From assembly GCA_029959195.1 (NCBI GenBank), contig CP114119.1, forward strand, positions 2,170,001 to 2,234,000: DNA of 64,000 nt, in the 5' to 3' direction. Position numbers and translations under genes: made by a program. This DNA comes from Dictyophora rubrovolvata. Its lineage: Eukaryota; Basidiomycota; Agaricomycetes; Phallales; Phallaceae. The number at the start of each line of letters is the position of its first letter. Position 1 is the first letter of the stretch. Below are positions 21,315 through 51,275 of the stretch, in pieces. The notes below the pieces were generated by a model. That model worked only from the letters and a program-made list of their open reading frames with translations. It ran no database searches and was not told the origin of the DNA.

Positions 21315-21808
21315 GAGGTGGACGTTTTTGAGTTCTCTGCTTGGTGGACAGGGCTCTAAGATGTCATCCGAAAATAAAAATTCTGGTGGAGAGTCTCGCC
21401 AGGAAAAAACGTTTTGCCGTAGCGCATGTAATGTGACGATGCTGGGTATAGAAGGTCACTTGCCCTTTTACCACGACCATCATCTCGGCAAGTCAGGTTA
21501 TTCATTCCGTCAAAATTTTATATAACAGAAGCTTTCGTCGTTTTACTGCACAAACAGCTCTCATTCATTCTTCTCCTTTCCTATATCGAATCTTACCCAA
21601 GTCAAATAAAAGAAAAGCCGTGAATCTGACATAGCCTTTAGGAGAATATGTACAGCTTTCCAACATCGAATCGCACTGCCCATCATGAAACAGAAATTTG
21701 GCATGTATTTTCTCGCATGAACACAGTTGTTAAGACCTATACATAGTTACATTCAACACAGAATTCTTTCATGGCACTTTGAGTATTCCATCGCCAAATG
21801 ATCGTCTA

Positions 21809-22198
21809 CTAGTCGATAACGCCCGTAGCACCATCCGGAACTAGATCCTTAGCGCTAATGTACAGGTAATCTACACCAAAGACGGTTAAAGTAATACAGC
21901 GTCCCTTTAGGGTCACTGTATATGGGGTCCCTGAAGGGAATTTTGGAATTGGTGGGGACCTATAGCCGCACCCTCCCTCTATTAGAGGAGTGCCATGGCC
22001 ATGGTTCGTGGCGTTGGTCGTCTTCATTTTGTGAGGAGGTGTAAGGCATATGGTGCTACCCGTCCCAATATTATCTGCGATATCATCTGCGCCGTTCAAG
22101 AATTGGTTGATTTTGTTCAACTCTTCGCTCGTGATTGCAGGAATTGCATCTTTATCCTCAGGATATAGTTCTATCAATTTCTCATGGGTCAGAGACAT
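21809..22198 (-). CDS. Orphan 129-aa protein, copy in left arm
   Basis: A continuous frame with an ATG start and no introns, MSLTHEKLIELYPEDKDAIP to KDLVPDGATGVID. A clear relative sits in the right arm (50571-50954) and keeps SEEL/NEEL-N-INQFL, the TTNATN block, PSGTPYTVTL and EGATGVID although its start is lost. The C-terminal half (GTPYTVTLKGRCITLTVFG) looks like short beta strands. I recognise no family. The conservation pattern, with more change at the DNA level than in the ending motif, suggests it was once coding; whether it is expressed cannot be seen. Confidence 0.5.
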   Translation of the reverse strand: MSLTHEKLIELYPEDKDAIPAITSEELNKINQFLNGADDIADNIGTGSTICLTPPHKMKTTNATNHGHGTPLIEGGCGYRSPPIPKFPSGTPYTVTLKGRCITLTVFGVDYLYISAKDLVPDGATGVID

Positions 22199-22255
22199 CG
22201 TGCTAATAGTGATAGTATCAGTGTAGTGCCAATTATGTAAATATGTAAGAATAAT

Positions 22256-22570
22256 TTATATACGAGCGTTTTGAATTTGGAGTGCACTTGTCAGAAAGGA
22301 AGAAGGGTCGTCAGTTACTGAAGGCGACGATGATACTGTTGAAGGACTAGCGAATGCCCTTTTATACATCCTAAGATGTATACATATATTTGCATCTCCA
22401 GACCTTCGGTGCCAAATTGTTGGCTGACCATCAGTGACAGGAGCATCTGGCAAGTCTTCTGACATCTTCGGTTGCGTCAACTTTGGCAACAGATTATAAT
22501 ATTCATCCCATACTAATGCGGATTTCACATCGTGGAAAATGAATGCCTTTTCCTTCAATAATCGTTCCAT
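22256..22570 (-). CDS. Orphan 104-aa protein, copy in left arm
   Basis: Frame MERLLKEKAFIFHDVKSALV to SALQIQNARI. The right arm keeps a decayed version (NLLPKLAQQKMSEDL, DGQPIISHRKSG) and even the same stop position (SALQIENVCM-stop), so the stop between this frame and the following 129-codon frame is old. The two frames are in the same register, 57 bases apart, and could be neighbours on one transcript or two exons of a gene whose splice sites I cannot place. No family recognised. Confidence 0.4.
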   Translation of the reverse strand: MERLLKEKAFIFHDVKSALVWDEYYNLLPKLTQPKMSEDLPDAPVTDGQPTIWHRRSGDANICIHLRMYKRAFASPSTVSSSPSVTDDPSSFLTSALQIQNARI

Positions 22571-23051
22571 CGTTTTTTAATTCCAACGTTAAAGACTATT
22601 GAGGCATCTGAGCCGGGCCAGTAACCATTTTCCCTTCACGTCTAAAGCAGCTGGAGTACCACCGCTTTTGCGAACGTGCGTTAATTGAACTCTGGGGGTG
22701 TGTGAGCAGGTCTAACCATTATTGTACTGTTTCCATACAAATACAAAGACCCCACTTCTTGCAAGAACCTTTACTGTCAGCTTGAATGATCCCACTCTTC
22801 TAAAATATGATTCTTCTGAATATGATTTCACCAACATTCCATACAAAATAGGGGGCCCTGTTGTTGATTGTGACCGATGAACAGCCCTCTTTCCCATTTA
22901 GGGACCACATTAGCTACAGTCGAAGCAGGTGACATGGGGTTGAGAGATCTTCCCTAATGCCAAACTCGACACCAGGGTCGAAAAGATCAACAAGCTTCGA
23001 TGCCCTTATTTACAAGACATATTTGGGTTCATCTTTTCGTCTATATATGTA
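22571..23051. other. Left-arm non-coding stretch before the mariner element
   Basis: About 480 bases matching 49140-49720 in the right arm. A frame at 22712-22897 is not preserved in the other copy. It probably holds the promoter of the orphan pair or decayed sequence. Confidence 0.4.
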
Positions 23052-23076
23052 CAGTCACGCACAAAACCGTACGCGC
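23052..23076 (+). repeat. Left terminal inverted repeat of the mariner element
   Basis: Begins CAGTCACGCACAAAACCG and pairs with the inverse of 24618-24642 with one mismatch over 25 bases. Confidence 0.9.
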
Positions 23077-23369
23077 ATCTGTCACTTTGGGAATGTACCT
23101 TAAATAAAAATCTTAATAAAATCCTTAAAATCACCAAATTATTTGAGAACATACCTGGATATGGTGAGAACATAACTTGTTAAGATGACTTGTGCTCATC
23201 GTTTCTCGCTCGCTCGCCTTTTATAAATTATTAGGCGGAGATCACATGTACAGTTTTGTGCGTTTTGAGTTTTGGAAAGTAAACTAAGGTTTTGCATTGC
23301 TTGTTTTCTATTGGCTTGGGGTCACATGACTGTATGCAGATAGGTAATATAATATCGAAGACTTTTGAG

Positions 23370-24410
23370 ATGGAAAGGCCAGGAAAATTGAGCATGATTC
23401 AACTTCCTCAGGAAAGAGTAGACAGCGTGCTCAGTCTCCTCGATTCGAAGGCATCGGTCAGGGAAATAGCCAAAAGAGCTGGTGTTAGTCATGGGGTTAT
23501 CACTAAAATTAGAAAAGAATATCGAAACGAGCTTGCCCGAGCCACCGGTGGTCGTCCTCGGTCACTTTCTCCTACTGACATCCAGCAGGCCGTCCGTTGT
23601 CTTACTTCTGGAAAAGCAACCACAGCAGTAGATGCCCAGAAAATACTTCAAAATGTGAGTGATATATCGTTTCATGCTATCACAATGCGACGCGGCCTCA
23701 AAAATTTTGGTCTTAAGGCAACGACAAAGGTGAAAAAGCCCCTCCTCTCATCCCGGCATAAGAAGGAGAGGCTTGATTGGGCGATTGCACATGAAAATTG
23801 GACGATTGAGGACTGGAAACGGGTTGTCTGGTCAGATGAAACAAAAATAAATCGTCTCGGATGTGATGGACGAAAGTGGGTTTGGAAACAGCCAGGGGAA
23901 CCCTTAAATGATCGACTGGTGGATAAGACTATGAAACATGGTGGTGGATGTATCATGATCTGGGGATGTTTCTCTTGGGAGGGGACAGGCTGGGCTGCCA
24001 AGATTGATGGGAAAATGGATGCTGATTTATATTGTCAAATATTGGAGAAAGAGTTGCAGGGATCTCTGGAGTATTTTGGGAAGGAAGTGGATGACTTCAT
24101 CTTCCAGCAGGACAATGACCCAAAACACACTTCAAAAAAAGCGAAAGCTTGGTTTAATGATCATGAAATCGATGTCATGGTATGGCCTCCACAGTCTCCC
24201 GACCTAAATCCAATAGAGCACCTTTGGGGGGTTGTGAAGCGGCAGCTTGCTGGGTATGAGACAGACCCTACCAGCATACATGAACTCTGGGAAAGAGCCA
24301 AAGATGTTTGGTTGAACATGGATGATAGGATTTGTCAGGATCTCATTGAAAGTATGCCAAGGAGGGTAGCAGCAGTGAAAAAAGCTAAGGGAGGGCATAC
24401 GAAATATTAG
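23370..24410 (+). CDS. Tc1-type transposase (DD34E)
   Basis: Cuts and pastes the element through its inverted repeats. From MERPGKLSMIQL it is 346 aa, the usual Tc1 length; in-frame upstream ATG at 23334 would add 12 residues. The N-terminus holds paired helix-turn-helix DNA-binding domains (SVREIAKRAGVSHGVITKIR, then a GRPRSL linker). The catalytic triad is complete: VVWSDETKIN, FQQDNDPKHTS and DLNPIEHLW, with 34 residues between the second Asp and the Glu. GGGCIMIWGCFSW is also typical. No stop or frameshift interrupts it. Confidence 0.95.
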   Translation: MERPGKLSMIQLPQERVDSVLSLLDSKASVREIAKRAGVSHGVITKIRKEYRNELARATGGRPRSLSPTDIQQAVRCLTSGKATTAVDAQKILQNVSDISFHAITMRRGLKNFGLKATTKVKKPLLSSRHKKERLDWAIAHENWTIEDWKRVVWSDETKINRLGCDGRKWVWKQPGEPLNDRLVDKTMKHGGGCIMIWGCFSWEGTGWAAKIDGKMDADLYCQILEKELQGSLEYFGKEVDDFIFQQDNDPKHTSKKAKAWFNDHEIDVMVWPPQSPDLNPIEHLWGVVKRQLAGYETDPTSIHELWERAKDVWLNMDDRICQDLIESMPRRVAAVKKAKGGHTKY

Positions 24411-24617
24411 ATTTCTATATTTTTGACGACACGAACAAAACTGTACACATGTACATGTCACACAAAGTAGCCTATATTGTATCAACGGACAATAATTACC
24501 AAAAGTACTTATAATAAACTTTGTAATTATTATATTCATGCATTCGCACAATTTTTTTTGTGATTTAAAAGAATTTATTGAGCACACTGTGTTCATTATA
24601 TACCAAAAGCGACGCGC

Positions 24618-24642
24618 GCGCGTACAGTTTTGTGCGTGACTG
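24618..24642 (-). repeat. Right terminal inverted repeat of the mariner element
   Basis: Ends GTTTTGTGCGTGACTG, the inverse of the left end, directly before the TA at 24643. Confidence 0.9.
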
Positions 24643-24856
24643 TACGTATGTCACTTCTCAATCGAGAGTTTTCAAAACCTCGAGTATTTATTGGTGAATT
24701 TTACCCGCTTTGAGGTTTAAACGCGGCGTACATCAAAACATTACGTCTTGTGGCTGAGAAATGGGGTGAGTTGACCAAGTATAAAATTTCAATTATTTTA
24801 TAATTTATACAATCAAAAAATGCGCAATTGAATAACACCTTAACATTAACATTTTT

Positions 24857-25645
24857 CAAATTTCACTCGGACCTCGTACCGGGGGGCAGCCTATCCCGTC
24901 AGCAGTAGTATAAGAGTAAGCCCTCCGCTCTCGTATGCATTTTTATGGGCTCAAAAAATCACAAATGGATCACCAAGATCGCATGAAGAAAAAACCAGCC
25001 TTCTACTGTATCATGCATACCGGCAAGTAGCTCCAGTAGATCCCTAAACTGCGACAATGGACGGCTCTTTACAATCTTACCCGTCCGTTTTGGGTAATTG
25101 CAGTATGGAGGATTTGGGTTTTTGGTAACGTCTAAAGTGAAGTTTTCGTAGGAATAGATCGATGATCCCGCCCTAATTACTGTCGAGGTAGCAGAGAAAA
25201 AACAACCAATATTTGTATGAGACTATTTGGATCCTTAAAATCGCAAGAAAAGAATTTCATTGCAGCAGCAGCAAAAAAGTACCAGCTCGATGGATATCGA
25301 TCATATCAGGAAGACCAACGATACCGTTTTTATCGACAGCGAACGCTTTGAGCATATTTACACAGAGGACTAGTAGTCCGACAACAAATTGTCGATTTTT
25401 TGATTGTACAAGATTCGATGAACACTATTATAGAGGTGTTGGACGGAACGCTCCCAGGTCGCGGGTGTATTTTGACTTCGAATGTCGACTGTTCTCACAA
25501 CTTGACTGCCTCACATAGACTAATGACCCTTATTTTTGAGGTATAAAAGCATTTCCTTTATTATTCGTTAAAAAGGGCTTCCTTTGTGATATCCATGTAG
25601 TATTTATCTTGGTTTTCTATCGAAGTCATCGTTTCTGGTGCTGCG
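24857..25645 (-). pseudogene. FunK1-like gene remnant, copy B
   Basis: Antiparallel counterpart of 47712-48944. It keeps the promoter-proximal sequence, the first codons (ATGACTTCGATAGAAAACC), the exon around TWERSVQ, and the block matching SQFRDLPELL. A deletion of several hundred bases removes most of the first exon, and the reading frame is broken several times. Its end still shows the AHKNAYESG-like codons near 24945. It is a dead copy. Confidence 0.7.
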
Positions 25646-26354
25646 TACTACTGAACAAAGAAGTTTAGAAAACGCATGCGCACTGCGATGGACGTGGTGC
25701 CGTGACCGGCACACGGATGTTTAACCAGAAAATGTGTACCGCGTTGGTGCCGCGGTGCCTGACCTTTTAACTCAAGTGCATACCAACGATGAGATATGCG
25801 AATGTACTTAAAAAATGCTATGGTATTTAACATAAACTATGGCCTGTGAAATCCTCTTCAATCACGCCCAGCGTTTAGCCACTGTGAAGAGTTAGTGAAT
25901 ATACTTGGAATATACATGGGGTTTACATACTCGATTTCGTCAACTTGAGCTCGTTCTTATTTTTGGCGATATACACCAATCCTGAATTGATGCCTTAATA
26001 GAAGGGGATTTCCATTCATGAGGGTGCTCGCTCTTAGAATCCACTGTGTCAGTAACGACAATAACTGTTGATTTCTGTCTCATAGGGAATAATTCTTCCG
26101 GATGTGTCAAATTTGAGTACACCCCTATGTGCCAAAACTCAAGTTGGCACAACAGGAAGATCTGCGAGCTCAAGACATCTTCCGAGCATGGACCGCTTGC
26201 TAAATACCTCCCCAGCGTACTATACCTTAACCAACTTGGCAAGTTTCGCTTCCCCCCGCATCATAGACAGGAATAAGTTGTTACTCCTCAACTTTGTTTC
26301 TACACAGTACTGGCGCAGACACAATGTGCCATCTCAGTAGCACTATTCGCCGAG

Positions 26355-26618
26355 TCAACTCATTCCACGAAAGACAAACTGGGCCCAAAACCTATATAGC
26401 ATGTGTCGACAGAAGGGTACGATTTCAACTAACACAACATCACGTTTCATATGCAAACATGTTTCCAGGTTGTTTTTCTCACAAAGTTTGAGTGTCAGCC
26501 TATACAAATGTGCCCGAGGCATAGCTGGATCGAAATTGGGATTCATCACTTGAAGCAAAGACGTATGTAGGGCGTTCCCGTTGTACAATCGCGGCCGTTT
26601 TAGAATTTCGCCTGGCAT
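26355..26618 (-). CDS. Possible 87-aa hypothetical protein
   Basis: A frame MPGEILKRPRLYNGNALHTS to VPFCRHMLYRFWAQFVFRGMS beside the left arm. No family, splice support or counterpart is recognised; it may be a leftover of a larger gene or chance. Confidence 0.2.
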   Translation of the reverse strand: MPGEILKRPRLYNGNALHTSLLQVMNPNFDPAMPRAHLYRLTLKLCEKNNLETCLHMKRDVVLVEIVPFCRHMLYRFWAQFVFRGMS

Positions 26619-26743
26619 TGTACGTAGAAAGTTACAATAGTATCTTTATATAATATCCTCTAGTTACAAGTGTATGTTCCCTTGTGCCATGTCGATCGAA
26701 AAATGTTTCTATGCAAAATGAAAGGATGAAAGGATGATGCCAA

Positions 26744-28796
26744 TCAGTCTTCCGGATTGTATCGTCGCCATCTCGGGCCAAAATGGACGACCGCCCAGTT
26801 CATAGGAAGTAATACCGCACATATTCCAGCGAACAACGTGAACGTCCAACCGGGTTTAATAGCTTTCAAGATAAAATCCACTATCGAAACTACTGTTGCG
26901 CCCATAGTGCAACGAACGAGATTATTCTAAAACAGCATTCAGGAAAAGCATAGCTTGAAGAAATGAGCGTTGGCTGACAGCTGCTGTGATGGAAGATCCT
27001 TGCATTGGAAATAGATCCAATAATAAAGTCTGGGCCATATTCATCATTGCAGTGATCCCCAAACCAACTATTGGCAAAACCGGATTAATTTTTTTTAGGT
27101 TGTAATTTTTTCTTTGAAACAGACTCACTTATGAATTGAAGAATTAAGGGACAAGCGATATGAACTTTTTGCTGGATCGACCACCCATACCCAACAAGAA
27201 CCGCAGCATATACCGCGACATACAGCGGAACAGTCCGAAGTCTTGCATACTCAAACGGAAAATCCGCAGACTCTCTTCCAGTAATCTTACTATCAACCAA
27301 TTCATTGGTCCTTCCTTCAGAGTGCAGTTTCTCCTCCCAATTGCGTTTTATTCTTCTAAAATCTATATCCAAAAGTCTGCCGTTACCGTAACTGCCTATA
27401 GCACATCCAAGTCCCACTGAGATGAAACAAAGTCCAATGTCAGTTTCTGTCAAAGATGGATATGCCTCGGCAAATAGTTCGGAAAGGGTCGCAGTAACAC
27501 CGTAAAAGACTGAGTAGACCGTTCCATTGTACAAGAGCACTAATACAACGCTGGGATGTTTAAAGGCTTTGAATGGATTGCTGAATTTCTTCGGGGGTGG
27601 ACGTGAAATATCGGTGGTATTTGAATAATGGGTGAGAATTGGTATTAGAGGGCGATTCCACTTAGGAGCAGGTACGCTCCCGTTTCCTACGATGACACGA
27701 AGGGTCTCAGGGAAAAATCTATTAATAAAATAATAATAAGCGATTGTTACACAGGACATAAGTGAAATCATTCACAGGAAAAAGAATATACAATATACTG
27801 CCGATGATATAGCAAGGAACCAAAATACGGATCTTGATAAGTGGTTAAAGAATTCAGAGGAAGTCTTTTCATTCCTATTTTATTGTAATGCACGTAGTTA
27901 CCTCCAGCCTAGTTTTCCCGCAAGAATACCACCAATTATAGGACCAATGCAAGGACCAATCTAAAAAAATAGTAATTGACCTAACATCCTTGCTCGTTGA
28001 CTTAACTGACGCACGAGTGGGCCTATAGAAAATAGTCCTAAAAAGCCACCCCGCTCAGATGGTTCGGCAATATCCGAGATAGTGCCAGAACCTAAGAAAA
28101 CGATGAGAAAAGCCATATAAATGGGTAATTATTGAACAGATGGTCTACCTATTGCGATTGTGCTTGCCGATCCCGCAGCTTGAAAGCATCGCAGTAATAG
28201 GAGTAGCCAATATGCGTCTGTCGGAACGAGTGCCAGTCCAACACAGGCAATACATAACAATAGTAAGCAAGTTATGAACAGAGGTCTTCTACCAATACGA
28301 TCGGATAAAGTTCCCCACAACATGGGGGCTGTGTTTATACGACCATATTTTTTAGATTGAAGGACAGAAGTGAGAGAATATATGTATGTGTACGCACAAA
28401 TGCCTTGTAATACCATATATACTGTAATAGTGACATTAATCAACTCCACCGAAACGTGAAAAGCATCTGCGAGTGCTTGTATAGCCGGGAAATATGAATT
28501 GGCAGTCAAAGGGCTATTGAGGTTTTGTTCATTCAGCAAATACTTGGGATTAACTAGCCGAGGACCAATTGTGTTCACCTGAACAAAGCGGCCATTGCTG
28601 CTAAAGCAATGATAATCCATTTCTCCTTTGGAGTAAAGATGGAGAATGTCCGCCTAGGCGAGGCCTCTGATTTAGATACAGGCTGATCTATGCTCTGGGA
28701 GTGAGTATGTTTGTCGTCAAAGGTCGTGGCTGCAGTGGTCCCAAAGTCGTCACGATCGTCTTCATCATATGATGGTCGTTCTGCTTTCTCTGCCAT
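26744..28796 (-). CDS. MFS drug:proton antiporter, DHA1 type (copy 2)
   Basis: Paralogue of the gene at 17103-19169 with the same start (MAEKAERPSYDEDDRDD), the same intron positions and the same motifs: WGTLSDRIGRRP (motif A), LLLLRCFQAAGSASTIAIG, PETLRVIVGNGSVPAP, and the end RRYNPED-stop. A predicted 12-helix exporter of the plasma membrane. The N-terminal tail is shorter than in copy 1. It is divergent from the fructosamine-kinase gene, with a 450-base shared upstream region. Confidence 0.85.
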
Positions 28797-29245
28797 GAAC
28801 GACTGAGAGATAAGAATCCAACTACCAAGCAATCTGCTGTTCCCCGTGGGTTTGAAAGCAACTTTTTATAAACCCATGACCAACCATGACCTTCTCAGTT
28901 CTAAGAGTTTACATAAGGGTCACATGATAAAGTTTATCGGCATCCGGCATTAGGCAATAAGGCGTGCAGTGGCCGAGCCCGATTTCAGTCCGATCCCCTG
29001 GCTTCCTTGCTATCGCAACTAAATTTTTCATTCAGGACGTTGGAAAATAAGTTGTGATTGAAACGTGTATCATTGATGACATACGATACTCCAAGTCCTG
29101 CAAGACATTCTCCTCGACCAAAGATACTTTGACGTCACGAGGCCCCAGACTAACTTTACGTATTCATTACGTCATAAAGCAGATTTATAATAATAATCTC
29201 CTCTCACCGGTTGCTCGCCGGCCCATCTCTTCTCCGTCTCCAAAA
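28797..29245. other. Divergent promoter region, MFS copy 2 and FN3K-like gene
   Basis: About 450 bases between two divergently transcribed genes; an AT-rich stretch TTTATAATAATAAT lies near 29184, about 60 bases before the FN3K start. No gene is seen. Confidence 0.5.
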
Positions 29246-30413
29246 ATGTCCTTCAAAAGAAGGATTCCGGACCCAATTCTACAAGTACTGGCATGTATTG
29301 AGCCAGATGCCAAATTCGTTGCTCACAGTGGCTCGTGCCATGTCCAATCCATCTCCTCCAACAGATCATACTATGTAAAAATGGGCCGCGAAAGGGATAC
29401 AGAGCAATATACAGGAGAAGCTGAATCGCTACGGGCAATGCATGCAGCTTGTCCTGGAATATGTCCTCGTGTTTTCGAATGCCTCGTCGACCAAGTTACA
29501 GGGTGCCCTATTTTTATCAGCGAATATAAGTCTATGGGTCCTCTCGACAAGCGTAATGCCGCGGAGCTTGGAAGGGCGTTGGCAGACATGCATCGGAATG
29601 GTCGTAGTCCTACGGGTCAATTTGGTTTTGCGATTCCAACGTATTGCGGCGCTACTCGCATGCGGAATGGCTGGGCGGACACATGGGGAAAGACATTCGA
29701 TAGGATGACCGGTGATTTGTTGCAAACTTTGCAAGATAGAGGCGAATTCGAAGAATTGTGCCGCTTAGGTGGACAAGTACGGAAGAAGTATGTATATGAA
29801 TTTTCAATTCATTCCAATAGATCTGGTGCCCCGACCTGAGTCCGATTGAATCATCTGATAGGGCCATCCCTCAACTTCTTGGTTCTCTGCAAGTAGAGCC
29901 CGTTATCCTGCATGGTGATCTTTGGGTAGGTTGTTTCAGGACGTCTCACAGGGAGACATCATCACCACTTACAAAAACTATCCATCCAGAGTGGAAATGT
30001 AGGAACAGACAATAGCACAGGCAAACCAGTTATTTATGATCCTTCATCCTACTACGGGCACAACGAGGCAGAGTAAGCTGAAAGGAAAACATTCCAGTAA
30101 CTGGCCATTTTTCATCTTTTTGTAGTTTATCGATCGCGCGAATTTTCGGTGGGTTTCCATCAGAATTTTACTCTGCTTATCACGAAAAAATACCCCCCTC
30201 CGACCCTATGGAGGAATATGACATGCGCGGTGCATTGTATGAGCTATTCCATTATCTAAACCATACCGTGCTTTTTGGGGTGAGTCATCTTTTTTTTCTG
30301 TCGACAGAAACTCACTGAGAAATTACAAGCGTTCGTATGAGAGCTCTGCCCGGCAAAAAATGAGTATGTTACTGCGGTATGTTGTTGACGACAAACGAAT
30401 ATCCATACTGTGA
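29246..30413 (+). CDS. Fructosamine-3-kinase / ketosamine-3-kinase
   Basis: Phosphorylates sugar adducts on lysines (fructosamine or ribulosamine) so that they fall off, a cytosolic protein-repair enzyme of the aminoglycoside-kinase fold. Five exons: 29246-29787, 29862-29935, 30000-30072, 30126-30279 and 30330-30413, giving 308 aa, the family length. Motifs in order: YYVKMG, ESLRAMHAACPGICPRVFEC, FGFAIPTYCGATRMRNGWAD, VILHGDLWSGNVG (catalytic loop, HGD), VIYDPSSYYGHNEAD (metal-binding D), and FHYLNHTVLFG. The last acceptor is taken as ACAAG before CGTTCG because it alone keeps the frame. Confidence 0.92.
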
Positions 30414-30676
30414 TAATCAGAGCGTGGGCTGATGTAAATGTGTATGTTTGCGGTATAATTCATGGGGTTAACGTTGTGCAACGACTTTCATCAACTGGCG
30501 TGATTTTCTAAACTTAGTAAGACTCGGATTACGTCACTATCGGAGGGTTCAGAGTATCACTTCTCCGATCCGGCAACGATAAAAAATGGAAGATTCCCAT
30601 GCTGACAAGTGCGCGGACTTGCTTTGCGATTCAAAGACATTTCACTAGGCAGTCATTGTCGATCACGGCGTGTAGC

Positions 30677-30684
30677 TATAAAAG
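30677..30684 (+). promoter_or_regulatory. TATA box before the OYE gene
   Basis: TATAAAAG lies 44 bases before the ATG at 30728. Its position argues for that start over the in-frame ATG at 30599. Confidence 0.5.
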
Positions 30685-30727
30685 CTCTCATAAATCGAGA
30701 AAAATCACCAGTAACACCGACATCGAA

Positions 30728-32415
<1,688 letters not shown>

Positions 32416-32540
32416 GGGCCCGGTGATAATCGATAATACCTTGAGGGTATATTTTTATATATACTTTATGATCTTCGTTGTATATCATTTTACCTCAGTA
32501 TCCTAACAGTACAAAGTCGTGCAATAGAAGCAGTATTAAA

Positions 32541-32560
32541 TAGGATAGAATAGAATAGAA
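32541..32560 (+). repeat. Short TAGAA tandem repeat
   Basis: Four 5-base units (one TAGGA, three TAGAA) in the 3' region between two convergent genes. Confidence 0.6.
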
Positions 32561-32640
32561 ATAACCATGCCAATAGTAACATAGAGGGAATCAAGGAATA
32601 TGTTAATACCGTCGAAGCTCTCTTTATAACGACATTGCTT

Positions 32641-39859: not shown

Positions 39860-39883
39860 TTCCGCTGTTAACCAACAGCGGAA
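39860..39883. repeat. Perfect 10-bp hairpin
   Basis: TTCCGCTGTT, a four-base spacer AACC, then AACAGCGGAA. No role can be assigned. Confidence 0.7.
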
Positions 39884-40226
39884 CGGAATATGAAGTTTAT
39901 CCGAAGTGCAGCGACAACGTTCCTAAATGGGATCTCAGGCCGATGGCAACTCTGACCTGACTTCATTTGAATTGTTAACTCGAGTCGAACCAAGGCGTTA
40001 ATTATTACCTTCCACTTTTGAAAGTCCACCGCAGATTCTTGAATATTATTTGAATTCTCAGGCATAAATGGCGAAAAGACAAACGGAATCCCACCGTTTC
40101 ACAGGGTGGGTTGACCTAATATTAATCCGCGTTGATCGTATTCCCATTACTCACATGCACTCACATATCGACCGTACAGCACGGAATATCATTACAAAAC
40201 ATCGACTGGGATAGTAAATATATTAC

Positions 40227-40480
40227 ATGCGAAGCTTGAAGTGCGCATCATTGCAGTCCTTGTTGGTGATAACGAACTCGGTTGTAAATCCGATATCCAC
40301 GGATACAATAAAGCGTTTATTTTTCCGTTCGACGTCCGATACCTGAAAAAGGTCAGAAAGAAGCACTTCATATATAGTACACTAGATGGCTTAAATACTC
40401 GACGCTTGACCAGTGGATGATGAGCGGCGACTCGCCAAGCAAACGGTCACGCCGCATGCATGCGTCACGCGTCACATGTC
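40227..40480 (-). CDS. Possible short two-exon gene, unknown
   Basis: A stretch reading VSDVERKNKRFIVSVDIGFT then TEFVITNKDCNDAHFKLRM-stop follows a good acceptor (TTTTTCAG at about 40351). A candidate first exon is MRRDRLLGESPLIIHWSS, but its donor is poor. The composition is protein-like; no family recognised. Confidence 0.25.
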
Positions 40481-40919
40481 ACATGCAATCGTGCCGGCGG
40501 AGTTGTGCCGTCTGAGTGGCCATCCTCTGCACGCAATTCATTCGACGATTCTCGCAAGACCATTTAACCGCTAACAACCATGCCCTCGTTTACCAGTCAC
40601 AATTTTTCACCAAACGAGTCAAATTTCTTGTTCCTTGTATTTTTACAGTCCGGGTTTTTTTAATTTGAATTGGACTGCCTATCGCCTTGAGGCATTTATT
40701 GAGCACGAACTTTACCAAACGCTGAAAGCTGGCAATATCTTCCATAGTCGTCGGGTTCTTTTTCGATATGACATGGAACATCGGCATGAAAGGTTCTTAA
40801 AGAAGGTGCTTCTTTTTTCCCCATATAAAGTCCTGGCAGCTGAATATTGGTAACTTGTCTTTATTCTCTCCTTAGCGATACACCGGTCCCCTCTGCACTA
40901 AGCTAGCTCTCGTCTTGTC

Positions 40920-43148
40920 ATGTCCACTTTCAATGATTCCCTCTTGGGCCAACCCCTCACTCGCACAAAGATCGTCGAAATCGCCAACCAGCGCAAAGCC
41001 GACCTAGCCTGCGTAATGGTAATACTCCTGGTCTTAGTCTACACAACATTCTCCAAAAAGAATGTATTCGAGACCTTCTCAAGAATTGTTTTGAGAAGAA
41101 GATATTCGAACAAACTGGGATCCTTTCCTCTCCCGCCCGGACCGCCTTCGTGGCCCGTCTTTGGCTATTTATCCGGCTTGCCGAAGATTAGGGCTTGGGA
41201 AGTCTATAATGAATGGTCCAAGACGTATGGTGAGCCTTCTCCGTTTTTGCGCGCTACCGTTGTCGAAATCCCGTTTATCCTATTTTTCTAAAACTAGGGT
41301 CGGATGTAATCCATGTTCCAACGTTTAGAAGAAACATTATCATCCTTAATTCACCTGAAGCTATTTTCGAACTATTGGAACAGAGAGGAAGTATCTACTC
41401 AGATAGACCTCATCTGGTCATGCTTCACGATCTGTACGCACACTCGATCGTTACCCCATAGTTTACTCATGTGCTCATCATCGCACTTAGGATGGATGTC
41501 AGCCAATCAACCGCTTTCGCCCGTTACGGTACAGACTGGCGTAACCACCGTAAGATATACAACCAACAAATGAACATCAACTCTGTCAAGAAGTTCAGAG
41601 TTTATCAATCTGCCGCTGCACGAGATCTGCTTGGCGTTTTACTGAAATCTCCGGATGAATTTGCAAGGCATATTAGACAGTGAGTGAACTCGTGCGGTTG
41701 TGCAATTTAATCAAACGCCGACTGTATTCGTTAAAGCTTCTCGGCGGGAGTAGTAATGAACATCGCATACGGTTATCAAATAGCTCGCGAAAATGATGAA
41801 ATAGTCGAACTTACTGAGCACACGGGTCGTGCTTTTTCTGAAGCTGCACAACCGGGCTTTTACATGGTCGATACTTTCCCAATGCGTATGTCACATAATG
41901 AGCCATGGACTCTCTTTTTTAATGATCAACATATGACAGTTCGACACGTCCCTTCATTCCTCCCCTTGACACAATTTAAAACCATCGCAACCCAAACACG
42001 AGAACTAGCCTATCAATCTAGGACTATTCCCTTCAGACGCGTTATACACGGAATTAAAGGAGGGATTTTTAAGAGATGTTTTGTCTCTGACCTTCTGGAG
42101 AATGTCGACGTTAGTGAGGTTACAACAACTAATAACAATCAACTAGCCTCACCGGCAAATTTGTCGTACGCGGTTTTGAAAAGTGATATGAGTATGGAGG
42201 AGTTTGAGAAGAGGGAGGATGTTGGGTTAATTAAAGCTATTGCTGGTGGAATTTTTGGAGGCAAGTACCGGGTTAACTTGGTTGTTGGGCTATTCACTGA
42301 TGATTTTGTTAGCTGGTACAACCACAACAACGTCCGCGCTTCAAACTTTCTTACTTGCAATGATCCTTTACCCTTCAGTGCAACAAAAAGCTCATGAAGA
42401 ACTAGACAAGGTTCTAGGAGGAGGCAGACTTCCCGCTTTTGAAGACCGTTCCTCTTTGCCATATATTAACGCATTATGCCAAGAAGTCCTGCGCTGGTTC
42501 CCCGTTACGCCCACTGCCCTCCCTCATGTGACGACCGAGGAAGATGTTTATAAAGGGTATAGAATTCCGAAAGGGAGTGTGATTATCCCGAACGCGTGGT
42601 CTGTTTTTTTTTGCCGTTCAACTTTCGCTCATATGTGGTGCTGATTTTTTTGTTGACACTTAGGAACAGTCTCCACGATCCAAAGACTTACCCTGACCCT
42701 GATGAATTTAAACCAGAGCGGTTCTTTCCTGATGAGAATGGGAATGTCTTAGCGCGTGATCCTGCCATCAATGGTGCCTTTGGATTCGGAAGGAGGTAAT
42801 GACTCATGAGCTTTGGTCTGATGAAATGAATTTGTGTTTACGTATTTTTTTTTTCAGAATCTGCGCAGGTCGTAATTTGGCAGAAGCTTCAATTTGGATA
42901 GCGGTTGCGTCAATGCTTGCTATGTTTAACATTCGTCCCGCTATCGATGCGAGGAGCGGTGAGCCTATCGATGTGAGAGGTTCGTTGAGGGGTACACCGG
43001 GATTGTTTAAGTGAGATATTAAACTTATGTTTGCGAGAAGCTTGATTCAATTTTTTAATACAGTCATCCTCTACCGTTCAAGTGTCGTTTTGAACCGAGA
43101 TCTGAGAAAGCGAAAAAGGTTATCCTCGAGGCTTGTGCTACAGCGTAG
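40920..43148 (+). CDS. Cytochrome P450 (CYP64/CYP620-type microsomal clan)
   Basis: Haem-thiolate monooxygenase anchored in the ER by an N-terminal helix (LACVMVILLVLVYTTF). Nine exons: 40920-41229, 41298-41433, 41491-41679, 41737-41885, 41940-42260, 42313-42598, 42664-42795, 42858-43010 and 43064-43148; 586 aa. Motifs: PLPPGPPSWPVFGYL hinge, WRNHRK helix C, AGTTTTTSALQ (I-helix oxygen site), EVLRW (ExxR), ERFFPDENG, and FGFGRRICAGRN (haem loop, Cys ligand) split by an intron. The intron at 42261 has a GC donor (GAG-GCAAGT), the classic non-canonical type. Substrate unknown. Confidence 0.93.
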
Positions 43149-43607
43149 GAGATTGTCATGAATAGTGTTATCCAGCTGTAAATTGTGCGTACCACAACGA
43201 TTTTTATTTATTTTCGTTCAGGATGCGTTACCTTGTAAAAACACGATTATCAAGATGTAAACATGTATGCTAGACATTATTTAAACAGTTGAGATTCAGG
43301 TCATTGATCAACTATTATGACGACGTCCGCCAAAATGGAATTTCCTCATACAAATATGATAACTCGAGTTAATATTAAACAAACCAAACCAAACCCCTTA
43401 TACCTTTTCAAAGAAGTGATATTACGATGAGATCTGCATGATGGGCCATGCACCATCATGCATCATGGCCGACCCAATGGTAGTATGTCCAACAGGACGA
43501 AACCTCGCTTTATGAATTACAGAATATATTTCATCTAAAAAACAATGCTCTTATAGAGCAGATAATATATATAATACATCAGCAACCGTCGACTTGTGAA
43601 TTATACA
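43149..43607. other. Intergenic stretch between convergent genes
   Basis: About 460 bases, AT-rich 3' flanks of the P450 and KIN17 genes; no gene seen. Confidence 0.5.
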
Positions 43608-44734
43608 TCACGCCCCCTCTCTTTCCATCTTGCGGCGCTTACGCTCCTGCTCCTCAAAGATGATACTCTCAACTGCGCTCATCGGTCGTTTCTTGACTTT
43701 ATCATCAACTGAAGTGGGCGCAGGTGCTGTATTCGAGCCCAAGCTTGAGCCCATTGATGCGGTCTTGAAAACATTGGTGCGTTTGAGGGGATTGGCGGCT
43801 GCTTTCAACGGATTCATCTTGAGCAACCCGATGCCTGCTGAAGCTGGAGCTGGAGCCATTTGTGAAGAAGAAGACGCCGCTGAGGTATCCGATGAGGTCG
43901 TAGTTGTTGCTACCGGTGGCTTCAAAGACAGCGAAAGCACCACTTTTTGATTCTCGTCGGTTCGTTTCAACCCTTCTTCAGCTACAGGCTCTTGCATATC
44001 CTCTGTCTCATTATTTGCAGCGGCGGCACGTCCAATTTGTTCCGCTATAAGAATTCGTTCCCGCTGCTCGTCCGACATTGTCAGACGCTCCTTTTTCAAG
44101 GCAGCTTCCTGTACACTCGACGGTCAAACCAAGCTGGGAAAAAAATAAATCTCATCTTCTTACCTGTTTAGCTAGAGTCTTTGGACTGTTATCTATCCAT
44201 GCCAAAAACCATCCCTTCTCAGTTTCGTCGACTCGAGCAATACCAGATCGTCCCAAGTGCTTGACGAATTCGGTAAGGGTAACCCATCGCGTGGAGTTCA
44301 TGTGCAAGTGGCTCTTGTCTTGAATGTACTCTTGATACACTCGATTAGCAAAGACACGTTTAGTTCCGAACCTAAAACACACATAGAACGTAAAAAAGGT
44401 CAATAATTGCAACCAGAACATGCTTACCGTCTCGAAAGTAATGAAACAAACTCTGACTGGAACTGAGCGGAAAAGTCCGCGATATGTTTGCCAGCATGTT
44501 CGCCAACAACAAGCATTTGACGAAGATGCGATTCGGATTGTGCATGACATTTAAACCCATTCTCGTCTCGACATTGTTTCTGGCAGACTTGACAGTACCA
44601 GCGGAGTCTTTGGAGACCCTTGGATTTCATTTTGTTTGCGACCCATTTTGTAGATCCAACTGAAAATGACGTTATTAAGCTGCGATAATACAAATGATCA
44701 CATATGTGAGCCACTGACCTTCTGCGCGAGGCAT
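43608..44734 (-). CDS. KIN17: KIN17-like DNA/RNA-binding zinc-finger protein
   Basis: Nuclear protein of the KIN17 family (yeast Rts2), tied to DNA replication and repair and to splicing. Exons 44734-44719, 44659-44428, 44371-44164 and 44108-43608; 318 aa. After MPRAEVGSTKWVANKMKSKG comes LQRLRWYCQVCQKQCRDENG, FKCHAQSESH (the C2H2 finger), then the winged-helix domain (VYQEYIQDKSHLHMNSTRWV, LTEFVKHLGRSG, GWFLAWID). A basic, Ala/Ser-rich tail ends in EEQERKRRKMEREGA. It lacks the C-terminal KOW/SH3-like domains of animal KIN17, as in other fungi. Confidence 0.92.
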
Positions 44735-45679
44735 TGTGAATGTGGCAAGAATGTGGAGGAAGGTTGAGTTAGTCAGGGCGCTTCAGCTCACGTCACGGGG
44801 TCACACTAATCAGCGTGGCGTTTCGGCAACGTTTCGGTCGCCAGCAAAGTTAGTTTTTACATTGTCATTTCGTATAAACACATGCTCTAATCATTGTAAG
44901 TTGATCACTACTGGCCTTTACGTGCACTCAAATGATTTAATAGAGCATCTTTACTTTCCAAACATAGTTCAATATTTTTAAGCTATATTTAACACCGGAC
45001 CGTCGAGCAAAGATCGATGAAGACACTACTAGTTGGCTCGATAATACAGGCTGCTAACAGGAGCTTGAGCAGCAGGTTTTCTCTCTCTCTCGCTTGGTCG
45101 GTCGTGCTAGAACTCAAGGCATTGCAATGTTTTTGCGGCCGTTCTGTTCAAACCGATCAGGTTTTGAGTCATCATGTTCAGGATTAACTCCCAGTCAAAC
45201 ATCGTCACGGTCTGGAAGCAGAAGCTGATGTGGGGCTATTTCCGAGCTGGGGGTAGATAGCGCAGGTCGAAAGCTAGCACGAATAACCCTCACGTTGGAA
45301 AAGTGGATAGAAGTCTTCGCTAAACTATGTGTCTGGGGCCCTGGATCCGAATCCAAACAGCCTGAGGCTAATGATAAGACTGAAATTTTCATTGCAAAAT
45401 GAGTGTGTTGATTCTTTAACGCCTGTGGAGCTCGCGTCCGGCTCATTTCGTCAATACGCTTAAGCTTGATACCGCAGGATACCGCGTACGGTGATATCTC
45501 GGCCTCCGCGGTTAATGACCTGGCATAGTAGTGACTTGATCCCTCCGCGATATTTCGGTCCAGAACTCTGTTCGATGTCGCATTGCTGGGATGATGGATA
45601 AGATTGATTGATACATGATAGAAGATATGTCGGTGTAAATTTTGAAGTTTAAAATCTAAACAGTTGTCAAGTCAGCTAC
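44735..45679. other. Stretch with only weak coding traces
   Basis: A frame on the plus strand near 45235-45402 reads ELGVDSAGRKLARITLTLEK and continues WIEVFAKLCVWGPG to a stop. It looks protein-like but has no start, splice support or family. Otherwise nothing is seen. Confidence 0.35.
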
Positions 45680-46230
45680 AAACTGGGACTATTCCAAGCG
45701 ACAGGTCCGTTCAACGAGAGGAGCATACCGCACGAGACGGAGACGCTGACCGAATTTTTTAATCGATAAATTGCTATCAACAGTCCTCTGTCCTCGGAAG
45801 GAACAGCATCATCGGTCTTGTCAAGATGATTGATGTCCATGAAGTAAGTTACTACATTTTTTTTGTAATCTTTGAATCTAAGTGGTCTGACACATGTCAA
45901 TAAGTTAATAGCCTTTCGCGACTACCCAAAACGAACGCGGGAAGACTGTGAGAAGCCATACGTTTTCGCAGTTCAGAGATTTGCCGGAACTACTCACCGA
46001 TATGACCAATGATAAGAAGTTCGTCTTCCTTTAGGCGATCCGGGGGGTATCGGTGTTTTTATTTATTTCAAGCATGAAAGGCATATCGAGCGGCGTGCTT
46101 CACTTTTATATTACTCCCGGAAGTAATATTGTCTTTGAGGACGTCGACGAGATGTACTACTATCCGAGTTTTCGGGAAAGATCACGTTGCTACGTCACAT
46201 ATTTAGACGAACCCCGGAAATACGAGTAGA
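45680..46230 (+). pseudogene. FunK1-like gene remnant, copy C
   Basis: Degenerate third copy of the 47712-48944 gene. Matches include ATTGATGTCCATGAAGTAAG (as in GATGTCCATCAAGTAAGT of copy A), YPKRT, SQFRDLPELLT, and GVLHFYITPGSNIVFED at the end. Internal deletions and several frame breaks separate these blocks. It lies about 1.5 kb left of copy A, outside the recognisable arm. Confidence 0.6.
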
Positions 46231-47149
46231 GCGAACAACGGCATAAGCTCAGCTTCTGGATTTTCTCGGATCTGGTGTCAAGTTTAGCACCACATCAGAA
46301 GATCTTTAAACTTAGACATCCATAAACTCAAACAATTGAATGAAAGGCCTTGAATTTCAGTCCTCGACACGGAATTATCACAAGGCTGAGTCGTCCTTCA
46401 AATAGTTCAATTATATAACTTCCAACAGTTCAATCTGGACCGGCTATTTAGTAGAGCGTAACTGTTTTCTAGAAGTCTAATTCGTTCTCCGTACGATACA
46501 CCCGTTAATTTGCCCGGCTTATCTCGCTGATAGAATTGCATTCAGAAGTGTGGGTTCATTTAATATCGATGTCGACAATAAAGACCTCCACTTGAATCCA
46601 TCACCTCGTATCTTGACAGAAGATGGGGTCTTCGTACTTGTAAGGAAAGGGCACGATAAGAATTAGATTGCTCAGTTGTTATCTACTCAACGCACCTTCC
46701 AGAAGAATAGCAGTATTACTCCGGCTCCGTTTAATTTCACCCGTATCCGGCATCGGAATGGAAGTCAACTACACCAATAATTCTTCTAGTGGAACGGGGA
46801 AAAAAGAATGTGTTAGCATACTACAGCTAAGACCAAGTAATAATTCATAATCTGGTGCCAAAGTTGACACAAATGCACATGTCCTGGCGAGCTAGATGCA
46901 GAAAGTCTTGCCAGCACAGCAAGTTGCTGAGATGGATAAAAGGTGTTGGTAGTTCGTCTCTTTTTCCCCAATCGACTCCTCGTCGCCGCTTTCACCTCTT
47001 GCAATCCAAGTGCCTCTTCAACGCAAACTTCTTGTTTACGAAAGCATCTTAGAATTCACTTAATGGCAGTATGTCGATAGACACATGAGTTTGTTCATAC
47101 ATACTAAATTATTACTAGATGGTCCTGACTCACTGGCGTGAAGGGTTGT
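46231..47149. other. Stretch between FunK1-like copies, nothing recognised
   Basis: About 900 bases without a supported gene. Short frames near 46668 and 46855 show no family or splice support. Confidence 0.4.
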
Positions 47150-47711
47150 TAAAGGTTTACACCGAAGATAGTAACCGTAGCACAACATGCCGTCTATGTG
47201 GGGGTTAAAGGAAATTTACCAAGTTGGTTAAGGTGCTTTAGTACGCTGGGGAGGAAGCAAGCGGTCCACGTTCAGAAGATGTCTTGAACTCGTAGATCTT
47301 CCATTTGTGGCATACAGAAAGGTACACGTGCTTATCGAAAGAATTATCCCTAGTTGCTATGAGACAGTATTCAACGTTATATATCGCCAAAATTAGAGCC
47401 TGCTCAAGTTGTCAACATCGATTAAACTCCATGTATATTCAAATGACTCTTCACAGTGGCCAAACTCTGCGCGTGATGGAAGGTGATTTTACAGGCTATG
47501 ATCTTATTTTAGACACTTCGATAGAGCGTTTTTTTAGTGAATTCGCGTATTTCCTCGTTGGTATGCACTTGCGTTGAAAGGTCAGGCACTGCGGCACCAA
47601 TGCGGCATACATTTCTGACATTTCTGGTTATACATCCGTGTGCCGGTCACGGCACCACGTCCATTGCACGCGTTTCTCATTGAACTTCCTCGTCATCTAC
47701 GCAGCACCAGA

Positions 47712-48944
47712 ATGATGGACGTCGATAGAGAGCCAAATCAGGCTGATAAATACTACACGGATATCACAAAGGAAACCCTTTTTAACGCATTTCTTCAATT
47801 GCCTCCCGAAAAATTAAAGGAAATTCGTCGATACCTCGAGAACAAGGGTCATTACACAAACAATCGATGGACCTATTTTCCTCTCGCCAACGATAACAGA
47901 CTATCCAATCGTGCTGCTATCCTTTATAAATCATTTACTGGACTTGGAAATGCCATTGACAAATACATTAGAACTCAGAATTGGGTTGAGAGTGATCGTA
48001 TCGGAGGGAAATGGGTGGCATGCCAGATCGATTATGAAGCACAGTTCGGCCCACCCCCGCCCGAGTGCGCAATTCCTCCTTGTTGTTCCTTCATACCCGA
48101 TGACATTACCGAAAAATTTCTTGACGAATGGGTTTACGAATTGACCGATATTGGTGGTCCGACCACACCCGAATCTCGGGTATGCTGCTATTTTTTTCTC
48201 AATGTTTACGCACACGCTCAAACTAATTTGTACAGGAGTCGAGGTGGGGGAGTCTAGTGACTACAGTCGACATTCGAAGCCAAAATACACCCGCGACCTG
48301 GGAGCGCTCCGTCCAACAACTCTATGACAGTGCTAATCGAATCTTGTACAATCAAAAAAATCGACAATTCGTTATCGGTATAATCCTCTGTGTCAATATG
48401 CTTAAAGTGTTCGTTATCGATAGAAACGGCATCATTGGACTTCCCGGTATGATCGATGTCCATCAAGTAAGTCAAGCTGGTATTTTCTTGCTACTGCGAT
48501 AAAATTCTTTTCTTGCAATTTTAAGGACCCAAACAGTCTCATACAATCATTAGCTGTTTTTTCTCTGCTACCCCGACAGAAATTAGGGTTTGGTAAATAC
48601 ACTGGCAAAAAGAAGGCGGAGTCATCGATCTATCCCTACGAAAACTTCACTTTAGACGTCACGAAAAACCCAAATCCTCCATACTGCAATTACCCAAAAC
48701 GGACGGGTAAGATTGTAAAAAGCCGTCCGTTGTCGCAGTTTAGGGATCTACCGGAACTACTCACTGGTATGCGTGATGCAGTAGAAGGCTAGTTTTCCTT
48801 CACGCGGTCTTGGTGATCCATTAGTGATTATTTTTTCTGTTTCAAGCCCATAAAAATGCATACGAGAGCGGAGTGCTTCACTCTCATATTACTGCTGACA
48901 GGATTGTCTTCCAGGACGAGATCGCCGTGAAATTTGAAGAATGA
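47712..48944 (+). CDS. Truncated FunK1-like protein, copy A
   Basis: Relative of the fungal FunK1 protein kinases, of which this holds only the region before and just into the kinase core. Exons 47712-48179, 48236-48466 and 48526-48792 give 321 aa ending DAVEG at a TAG. A GC donor (AAG-GCTAGT at 48788) with acceptor at 48846 would add exon 48847-48944 for 352 aa, reading DAVEAHKNAYESGVLHSHIT. The FunK1 pattern SVQQLYDSANRILYNQKNRQ, FVIGIILCVNMLKVFVIDRN, GIIGLPGMIDVHQDPN is clear, as is SQFRDLPELLTGMRDAVE. Where active FunK1 kinases have HRD, this has HSH, and no Asp or DFG-type loop follows. It is therefore not an active kinase; it may be a decaying gene or a pseudokinase fragment. Confidence 0.6.
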
Positions 48945-49771
48945 TAATGTTCGGGTGTTATTAAATTGCGCAATTTAAATTGTAAAATTACAAAATTTTA
49001 TACTTGGTCAGCTCACCTTATTTCTCACCCACAAGGCATAACGTTTTGATTCACGCGCTGTTTAAAGCGGGTAGCAACAGGTAGAAATCACCAATAAGTA
49101 CTTGAGTTTTTGAAAGCTCTCGTGTTGAGAAGACACCGATGGACAGATGAACCCAAATATGTCTTAAAGTAAATAACGGCATCAAAGCTTGTTAATCTTT
49201 TCGACTCTGGTGTCGAGTTTGGCACTCAGAAGATCTGTCAACGTCATGTCCCTGCTCCGACTGTAGCTAATGTGGTCCCTAAATGGGAAACGGGGCGTTC
49301 GTCTTAAAGAATATTGCTCACTACGTGTACTCAACACGAGTGAGGAAATAGGCGCGGTGCGCGTATGTAACTATATACACTGTGACTGTAACTCAACACG
49401 TCTGTTATATCTCAACAACTTCCGGGCCTACTATTTTGTATGGAATGTTGATTAAATCATATTCAGAAGAGTGGGATCCTCCAAGTTGACAGTAAGGTTC
49501 TTGCAAAATGCCACCCACTGGGGCCTTTCAAGCATTTGTACGGAAACAGTGCAATAATGGTTAGACCTGCTCACACACCGCCAGAGTTTAATTAACACAC
49601 GTTCTCAAAAACGGCGGTACTCCATACCCAGTGTTTTAGGCGTGAAGGGAAAATGGGTACTGGCCCGGCTCAGATACCCCAATAGTCTTCAACGTTGGAA
49701 CTAAAAGTCAACAATGGAATTATAGCAAAAATCATTCACTTTCCTGTAAAGTCCGCATTCTCGATGATGAC
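48945..49771. other. Right-arm non-coding stretch
   Basis: Matches 22571-23051 and 24643-24857 of the left arm and contains the unoccupied mariner site near 49145. A frame at 49270-49455 is not shared with the other arm. No gene supported. Confidence 0.45.
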
Positions 49772-50010
49772 GTGTATATTATAAATCTGTTGCCAAAGTT
49801 GGCACAACAGAAGATGTCAGAAGACTTGACAGATGTTCCCGTTGATGGTCAGCCAATAATCTCGCACCGAAAGTCTGGGAATGCATACATATGTATACAT
49901 CTAGGGTGTAAAAAATGGTATTCGCTAGTCCTTCAACAGGATCATCGTCGCCTTCAATAACTGACGACCCTTCTTCCTTTCTGATAAGTGCGCTTCAAAT
50001 TGAAAACGTT
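49772..50010 (+). pseudogene. Decayed right-arm copy of the 104-aa orphan frame
   Basis: Retains NLLPKLAQQKMSEDL and the DGQPIISHRKSG block, then shifts frame relative to the left-arm copy; the terminal SALQIENVCM-stop is still visible near 49990-50019. No ATG at the homologous start. Confidence 0.55.
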
Positions 50011-50056
50011 TGTATGTAAATTATTCTTACAAGTTTACATGATTGACACTACATTA

Positions 50057-50537
50057 GGGGGTTTCACGTTGGTGAATTCCAACGTGAATTCGGGCTGAAT
50101 TCGTTCCTGAATTCGTTCTTGAATTCGTTCTCGGAATTCTCCGGAAATCAGTTTTGGAGTTCAGGTTGGAGTTCAGTGCGAAAGCAGCTCAAAGCTGCTT
50201 TCGCAGTTTGATCAAAAACTCCACTCGCTAATTCGTTTTGAACTCTCGCTTAATTTTTTATCGGATTAAATTATTTATGTATGCCCGTATTACGAATTAA
50301 TTATTTACCAAATATTACATTATCCATCGGTCCCCATGAAATATAAGCGAAAATGTGAGCAGGAATTCAAGTGGAATTACCGAAGGGGGGGTTTCACGTT
50401 GGACAAACTCCACCTGAACTCCACCTGAACTCGTTTAATAACTCGATGATAACTCAGGAATTCACAAGGAGTTCAAGGAGGAGTTATCCGCCGAATTCAG
50501 AGCGAATTCAGAGCGATTTCTCCAACGTGAAACCCCC
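50057..50537. mobile_element. 481-bp MITE-like element with GGGGGTTTCACGTTGG ends
   Basis: Flanked by TA (50055-50056 and 50538-50539) and bounded by a perfect 16-bp inverted repeat GGGGGTTTCACGTTGG. The core TTTCACGTTGG occurs four times: 50062 and 50392 forward, 50079 and 50522 reverse. The left end folds into a hairpin around TGAATT; a perfect 13-bp hairpin lies at 50177-50205. GAATTC-rich short repeats fill the left part. A 151-bp inner unit (50387-50537) is itself bounded by the same repeats, suggesting nesting. It has no coding frame and is absent at the matching place (near 22216) in the left arm. Confidence 0.8.
50177..50205. repeat. 13-bp hairpin inside the MITE-like element
   Basis: TGCGAAAGCAGCT, spacer CAA, then AGCTGCTTTCGCA; a perfect inverted repeat. 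Confidence 0.8.
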
Positions 50538-50570
50538 TATTTGATACTATCACTATCACTATTAGCACAA

Positions 50571-50954
50571 TATCTCTGACCCCATGAGCAATTAACAGAA
50601 CTATATCCCGAGCATAAAGATGCAATTCTTGCAATCACAAACGAAGAATTGAACAACATCAACCAATTCTTGGACGGTACGGATAATATCTCAATCGGTC
50701 AGGGCAGTACCATACACCTGGTACCTCACATAATGAATACGACCAACGCCACAAACGATGGCCGTGCCAGCACTTCTCTACAAGAGACAGCGTGCGACTA
50801 TAGGCTCAATCCAATTCCAAGGTTCCCTCGAGGGACCCCATATACGGTGACCCTAGACGGAAACATTGTTATTTTAACCGTCCTAGGTGTACGTTATATG
50901 TACAGGAGCGTTCGTCGTCTAATTTCGGAGGGTGCTACGGGCGTTATCGACTGA
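50571..50954 (+). pseudogene. Decayed right-arm copy of the 129-aa orphan frame
   Basis: Matches the left-arm frame through ELYPEHKDAILAI, NEELNNINQFLDGTDNI, MNTTNATND, PRGTPYTVTLDG and EGATGVID-stop. The homologous start reads ATA and an extra C shifts the first codons, so translation would have to begin elsewhere (for example at an internal ATG near 50731). Confidence 0.6.
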
Positions 50955-51275
50955 TATGTAGTAGACGATCACTTGGCGATGGGGTTTAAAGTGGCATGAA
51001 AGAATTCTAGGTTGAATGTAACTATGCATAGGTCTTAACACCTGTATTCACGAGAAAAAAAATGTAAGAAAATACATGCCAGATTCATGTTTTATGATGG
51101 ACAGTGCGATTCGACGTTGGATGATTGAATCAGTAGATAGCTCTGTTGCTGGTTTGTAAGGCCTCGAATATGAACACAGAGGGCATTACATACGGAGTGA
51201 TGTTGGAGAGCTGTACATATTCTCCTGAAGGCTAGGTCAGATTCATGGCTTTTCTTTTCATTGAAAGCTAAATAG

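Follow-up and report, generated by a model that had tools for sequence, protein, structure and literature searches.

A stretch of 64,000 nucleotides of the Dictyophora rubrovolvata genome (C3:2170001-2234000 on contig CP114119.1, hereafter the window; the genome comprises 28.24 Mb in 11 contigs) contains an inverted segmental duplication, whose two arms hold copies of a FunK1-type fungal protein kinase gene and of a small gene and enclose a middle block of ordinary genes (Table 1). Whichever mechanism gave birth to them, we read the arms as the passive, decayed scar of a rearrangement and not as a working switch, with a probability of about 0.8. A segment of about 3 to 3.5 kb carrying both genes would have been duplicated once, in inverted orientation and on the same chromosome, and both copies would have decayed afterwards, through the deletion of one stretch, the loss of the kinase HRD motif and of a start codon, and transposon insertions in each arm separately.

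Extent, copy number and decay of the arms

Self-blastn of the window, together with a finer search with the left arm, aligned the two arms in opposite orientation in eight colinear blocks, which sum to 2397 identities, 374 mismatches and 235 gap columns (two of the blocks share a few overlapping bases). The identity derived from the finer search was 86.5% without gaps and 79.7% with gaps. The best single block of the window self-blastn scored 803 bits, whereas resampling the left arm 500 times with a first-order Markov model, its transposon excluded, gave no score above 34.6 bits in comparison with the right arm, and chance similarity was therefore rejected. Both genes and their spacers are spanned by the match, coding and non-coding DNA being aligned alike; the intergenic stretch 22222-22867, for example, matches at 80.5% in the window self-blastn. 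A sequence-only reading of this DNA had described an opposite-orientation match of 21590-26300 and 47150-51275 over about 3 kb including spacers, with the arms 21 kb apart. This description was borne out, as colinear blocks and not scattered short matches were obtained and the inner distance between the arms is 20,923 bp. The extents given in that reading proved real but inflated, on the left by a 1.6 kb Tc1/mariner transposon and on the right by a miniature inverted-repeat transposable element (MITE) of 481 bp and a piece of about 95 bp from a long terminal repeat (LTR). Minus the inserted elements, the arms measure about 3.07 kb (left) and 3.50 kb (right), and a stretch of about 380 bp in the right arm, 47855-48236, has no counterpart on the left. 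A global MAFFT alignment of the arms strayed around the inserted elements, and the blastn blocks were used instead.

The genome was searched with three DNA queries (24000-26300, 47150-51300 and 21590-23044), which together cover both arms; the copy counts are lower bounds, with 40 of 53 candidates scored for the right-arm query. Inserted elements aside, the arm segment was found at least twice in the 28.2 Mb, namely as the two arms, and within these lower-bound counts no third DNA copy outside the inserted elements was reported. Many other genomic places match only the inserted elements. With two DNA copies reported in these lower-bound counts, a repeat family dispersed across the genome was rejected, and the non-coding match together with this copy number upholds the earlier view of a segmental event and not just of paralogous genes: the arms look like one such event.

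Each of the three inserted elements (Table 1) lies in one arm only, without counterpart opposite, and was therefore either inserted after the duplication or lost from one arm; insertion after the duplication would be the simpler reading. The left-arm transposon carries a 372-codon frame with DDE_3 and HTH_Tnp_Tc3_2 matches above the Pfam cut-offs and combines a DDE transposase with the terminal inverted repeats and TA target duplication of a Tc1/mariner element. At least seven other genomic places match it at 98-100% over about 645 of its bases in the query. The inverted ends of the MITE were placed by self-blastn at 50055-50103 and 50492-50539, and at least five other places match the greater part of it at 76-94%, besides partial ones. 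It ends in GGGGGTTTCACGTTGG, and an extra copy of that end occurs internally near 50385; the MITE is perhaps a nested or composite element. Some relatives of the LTR fragment are paired 4.7-4.8 kb apart, on C1, C4, C8 and C9, as two LTRs would be, pointing to full-length LTR elements in this genome.

Kinases carry an HRD motif in their catalytic domain. The right kinase copy shows HSH in place of HRD, followed soon by a stop and an early gene end, and thus lacks both the catalytic HRD and a full kinase domain (motif position by eye). Its family call rests on the genome search with PF17667, which matched 48230-48472 with 43.4 bits against a cut-off of 24.1 over model positions 18-97 of 387, a profile that is not wholly specific, since 4 of the 14 prokaryotic genomes used as controls also gave matches, two of them above the cut-off. 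In the frame scan the right-arm FunK1 frames matched no Pfam family at E 0.1, and the exon 1 frame found only itself in the genome at E ≤0.001. The left copy is a relic, and a further FunK1-like fragment lies just inside the right arm (Table 1).

For the small gene, no Pfam family was matched at E 0.1. The right copy, in which the start codon is replaced and one additional base is present shortly after, is probably a pseudogene. Between the arms the gene gave Ka 0.252 and Ks 0.238 over 123 codons, and the ratio of 1.06 would fit neutral change since the duplication. Four copies were found in the genome at the protein level: the two arms, which are 65% alike, one at C3:2243303 (43%), some 22 kb past the right arm, and one at C2:3014872 (46%). 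Ka/Ks to the C2 copy was 0.17 and 0.25, at Ks values of 2 to 3 that are near saturation, and Ks to the C3 copy was saturated. The genome listing for PF17667 holds no match near the C3 and C2 copies, and the FunK1 query made beside them is valid for exon 2 only, the exon 1 frame having been wrong. A short motif near TTGGCACAACAGAAGATCT recurs in the arm spacers at 22462, 22945 and 49799 of the window, and short stretches around the C3 copy also match the right arm, one of these matches falling in the area of the TTGGCACAACAGAAGATCT motif.

Ten blastn blocks between the arms contain 215 transitions and 130 transversions (ratio 1.65), and the Jukes-Cantor distance over the ungapped columns of all blocks is 0.149. 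Among the C/T differences there is no excess of CpA sites (p 0.77); that of CpG sites is mild (p 0.04 uncorrected, 0.11 across four contexts). As CpA enrichment is lacking and the CpG excess is only mild, repeat-induced point mutation (RIP) is not a likely cause of the divergence. With respect to age, the one-exon Ks of a neighbouring MFS-like pair (0.735) and of an F-box-like pair (0.674) exceeds that of the arms (0.238, from the one small gene), so that the arms look younger and their duplication was probably a separate event; one event shared with these neighbouring duplicates was rejected, as the Ks values differ.

The longest exact run between the arms within the ten blocks is 56 bp, and they are not the long, nearly identical arms of a recombining repeat. 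Strong divergence between repeats is expected to suppress their recombination strongly. At 79.7% gapped identity and with this longest run, homologous recombination between the arms is therefore unlikely, which speaks against the earlier suggestion that they could mediate inversion of the middle block. The arms are probably too worn to flip the intervening genes today, a present inertness that we infer from their divergence.

Table 1 Features of the inverted duplication and its surroundings (positions in the window)
Feature	Position	Strand	Basis
Left arm	21602..26268	+	Eight colinear minus-strand blastn blocks to 47192-51264; later transposon inside
Right arm	47192..51264	-	Same eight blocks; MITE and LTR fragment inside
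Middle block, 20.9 kb of ordinary genes	26269..47191		Pfam matches
Small gene, left copy, 129 aa, open	21809..22198	-	No Pfam family at E 0.1
Small gene, right copy, 124 open codons	50580..50951	+	ATA in place of the ATG of the left copy; an additional base soon follows
FunK1-type kinase, left copy, relic without most of exon 1	24654..25973	-	Aligned to 47380-49132, about 380 bp missing
FunK1-type fungal protein kinase, right copy, shortened	47715..48944	+	PF17667 match and translations; exon limits by eye
Additional FunK1-like fragment, slightly inward of the right arm	45923..46143	+	72.4% direct match to 48691-48918
Tc1/mariner-type DNA transposon, left arm, 1591 bp	23052..24642	+	TA on both sides, CAGT...ACTG ends
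MITE-like element, right arm, 481 bp	50057..50537		Terminal inverted repeat, TA on both sides
Solo LTR fragment, right arm	49305..49399		At least 24 other places, 95-100% over 70-93 bases

Possible origins of the inverted pair

The sequence shows one colinear inverted pair with two DNA copies reported, insertions confined to one arm each and no mark of RIP, and the mechanism of its birth is an inference. Tentatively, we favour a birth event in which staggered breaks would have inverted the 21 kb middle block, with repair leaving the stretch between the nicks in inverted orientation at both ends. Inverted duplicates do lie at both ends of the block; by eye, the arm flanks look unlike each other and no common element was seen at the arm ends. 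A precedent has been described in Drosophila (PMC3355041). In that account inversion ends bear inverted duplications of once-single-copy DNA of about 1, 4.3 and 7.1 kb, which are ascribed to staggered breaks, and 4 of 14 breakpoints lie between pre-existing duplicates; in the window the left arm lies between the two members of the MFS-like pair. Like the window, the D. mojavensis inversions 2h and 2q, as described there, have single-copy, gene-bearing segments of a few kb inverted at both block ends, and in 2h one copy has decayed more than the other, a further likeness. What sets the Drosophila cases apart is that a second species supplies their ancestral order, whereas the window is known from one genome.

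Several points weigh against our reading of the arms. A single genome was examined, and it reveals neither an inversion nor its direction, and the junctions are too decayed for a repair signature to be read. The neighbouring paralogues point in opposite ways and therefore do not favour either history: were the middle block turned back, the three F-box-like genes would share one orientation, but the older MFS pair, now direct, would become opposed. Furthermore, the arm small genes may not have been free of selection throughout, since the left copy is still open over 129 codons and the right one keeps 124.

The other branch of the scar reading, nearly as likely as the staggered-break inversion, is an inverted duplicative insertion, in which, during replication or the repair of a break, a polymerase would switch template to the opposite strand, some 21 kb distant, and copy the segment into its new place, the middle block never having been inverted. 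It is a serious possibility: it predicts the same arm anatomy, other FunK1 loci hold inverted pairs with spacers of about 1.7 to 113 kb, and the rearrangements reported for a fungal pedigree (PMC8192914) include many inverted duplications, namely 380 among 1464 de novo events, next to 283 duplications and 38 tandem repeats. As in the window, inverted copies of chromosomal DNA are concerned in that report; they were found between strains or within the pedigree, whereas the window copy is old. At such old arms no junction signature of template switching could be read by eye, and nothing separates this insertion from the inversion by staggered breaks. A direct tandem duplication, later separated and turned by unrelated rearrangements, is improbable; local duplicates of seemingly different ages do occur elsewhere in the region, but two or more events would be needed where one suffices. 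It is very hard to see the arms as a mobile element or dispersed repeat that captured a kinase gene and is present twice: transposons do lie inside both arms, but within the lower-bound counts only two DNA copies were reported outside the inserted elements, and on inspection by eye the arm ends shared neither a terminal repeat nor a target duplication. That the arms are inversion-prone repeats still flipping the middle block between strains, as their inverted orientation and about 3 kb of common sequence might suggest, is hardly credible at the gapped identity and exact run given above, as such divergence suppresses recombination.

Inverted duplication of this kind is already known, as the Drosophila and fungal pedigree reports and one on C. 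elegans show, the latter stating that newborn duplicates are often adjacent and inverted (PMC2728529). Taken alone, the window pair is an ordinary scar, which illustrates locally how inverted copies wear down and gain transposons in a chromosome without RIP marks.

Inverted pairs at other FunK1 loci

The genome holds 74 matches to PF17667 in about 43 places (grouped by eye). The FunK1 diversity of Paracoccidioides and Coccidioides has been ascribed to lineage-specific duplication in PMC3203195, whose account of the family does not address orientation in the part available to us; the family has likewise multiplied here, with the difference that the window copies are shortened. To compare pairs, the DNA of 28 of the about 43 places was taken together with the left relic (29 entries), which yielded nine reciprocal best pairs. 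One of them, C11 527892/529635, was dropped, as the two flanks compared overlap; its own match is inverted, 88.8% over 545 bp. Seven of the eight usable pairs are inverted (the window pair on C3, one each on C4, C5 and C6 and three on C11), and one, C11 155012/327182, is direct. For C4, C5 and C11, where all grouped places were included, five of six pairs are inverted (one-sided p 0.11). Adding C6, with two of its five places included, gives six of seven (p 0.06), and adding the window seven of eight (p 0.035); these p values flatter the inverted bias, as the window was chosen as inverted and C4, C5 and C6 were chosen for opposite strands. The sample is also small.

The pairs differ widely in likeness. 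Inverted arms on C11 are 96.9% identical over 7.2 kb, and older pairs reach 85.4% on C11 and 82.5% on C5. An inverted pair on C6 (919049-922284 and 941724-944962) has arms of 3.3 kb that are 97.4% identical and 19.4 kb apart. A further one on C4 (1313752-1318418 and 1431920-1436543) has arms of 4.7 kb that are 96.4% identical and about 113 kb apart; being more alike, the C4 arms would be a better recombination candidate than those of the window. A dense FunK1 cluster occupies C11:115001-165000, 185001-205000, 318001-348000, 437001-447000, 487001-497000 and 525001-535000 and contains many direct and inverted segmental copies of about 66-99% identity, among them inverted arms of 7-8 kb about 13.4 kb apart.

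Control families were scored to differing extents (P450, 92 of 262 candidates; F-box, 131 of 131; adh_short, 19 of 148; MFS_1, 9 of 132). By eye, and from equal scores alone, P450 has two opposite-strand pairs (C1 288164/326983 and C10 1154399/1165318) and one same-strand pair (C1 198197/211812). Among the scored candidates of F-box, adh_short and MFS_1 no clear near-identical inverted pair was seen, and neighbouring same-strand matches occur for F-box (e.g. C7 2265297/2271172) and MFS_1 (C7 2298295/2303192). These controls are weak and include both opposite-strand P450 pairs and direct copies, so that they do not single out FunK1 for an inverted bias. The excess at FunK1 loci is a lead and not a result. 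Better survival of inverted copies would explain it as well as a formation bias, since direct copies can be deleted by recombination. It is conceivable, if doubtful, that local inverted duplication is a main route by which FunK1 segments multiplied in this genome, with the spaced pairs forming a time series that starts at nearly identical arms (97% on C6, 96% on C4) and ends with decayed ones (the window). Should the inverted bias hold with every FunK1 locus counted, this genome could serve to ask whether more frequent formation or better survival of inverted copies lies behind it.

Middle block and neighbouring genes

Of the seven genes named for the middle block in the sequence-only reading, FN3K (Fructosamin_kin), OYE (Oxidored_FMN), PAP2 and P450 were recovered, whereas MFS was matched only below the cut-off; SNX4 and KIN17 were not seen, no search aimed at either having been made. 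In a scan of ten frames, the three of FN3K, OYE and PAP2 exceeded their Pfam cut-offs, and the P450 match lies at 42297-42605. The direct MFS-like pair (17103-19210 and 26744-28842, 77% alike) flanks the left arm on both sides. Three related genes lie at 19858-21290, 35690-37245 and 37918-39470, the first inverted relative to the other two; F-box-like matches were obtained in two of the three, below the Pfam cut-off. ARAGORN and Rfam (gathering scores) gave nothing in the window, and a tandem repeat scan of the window returned six rows of short arrays.

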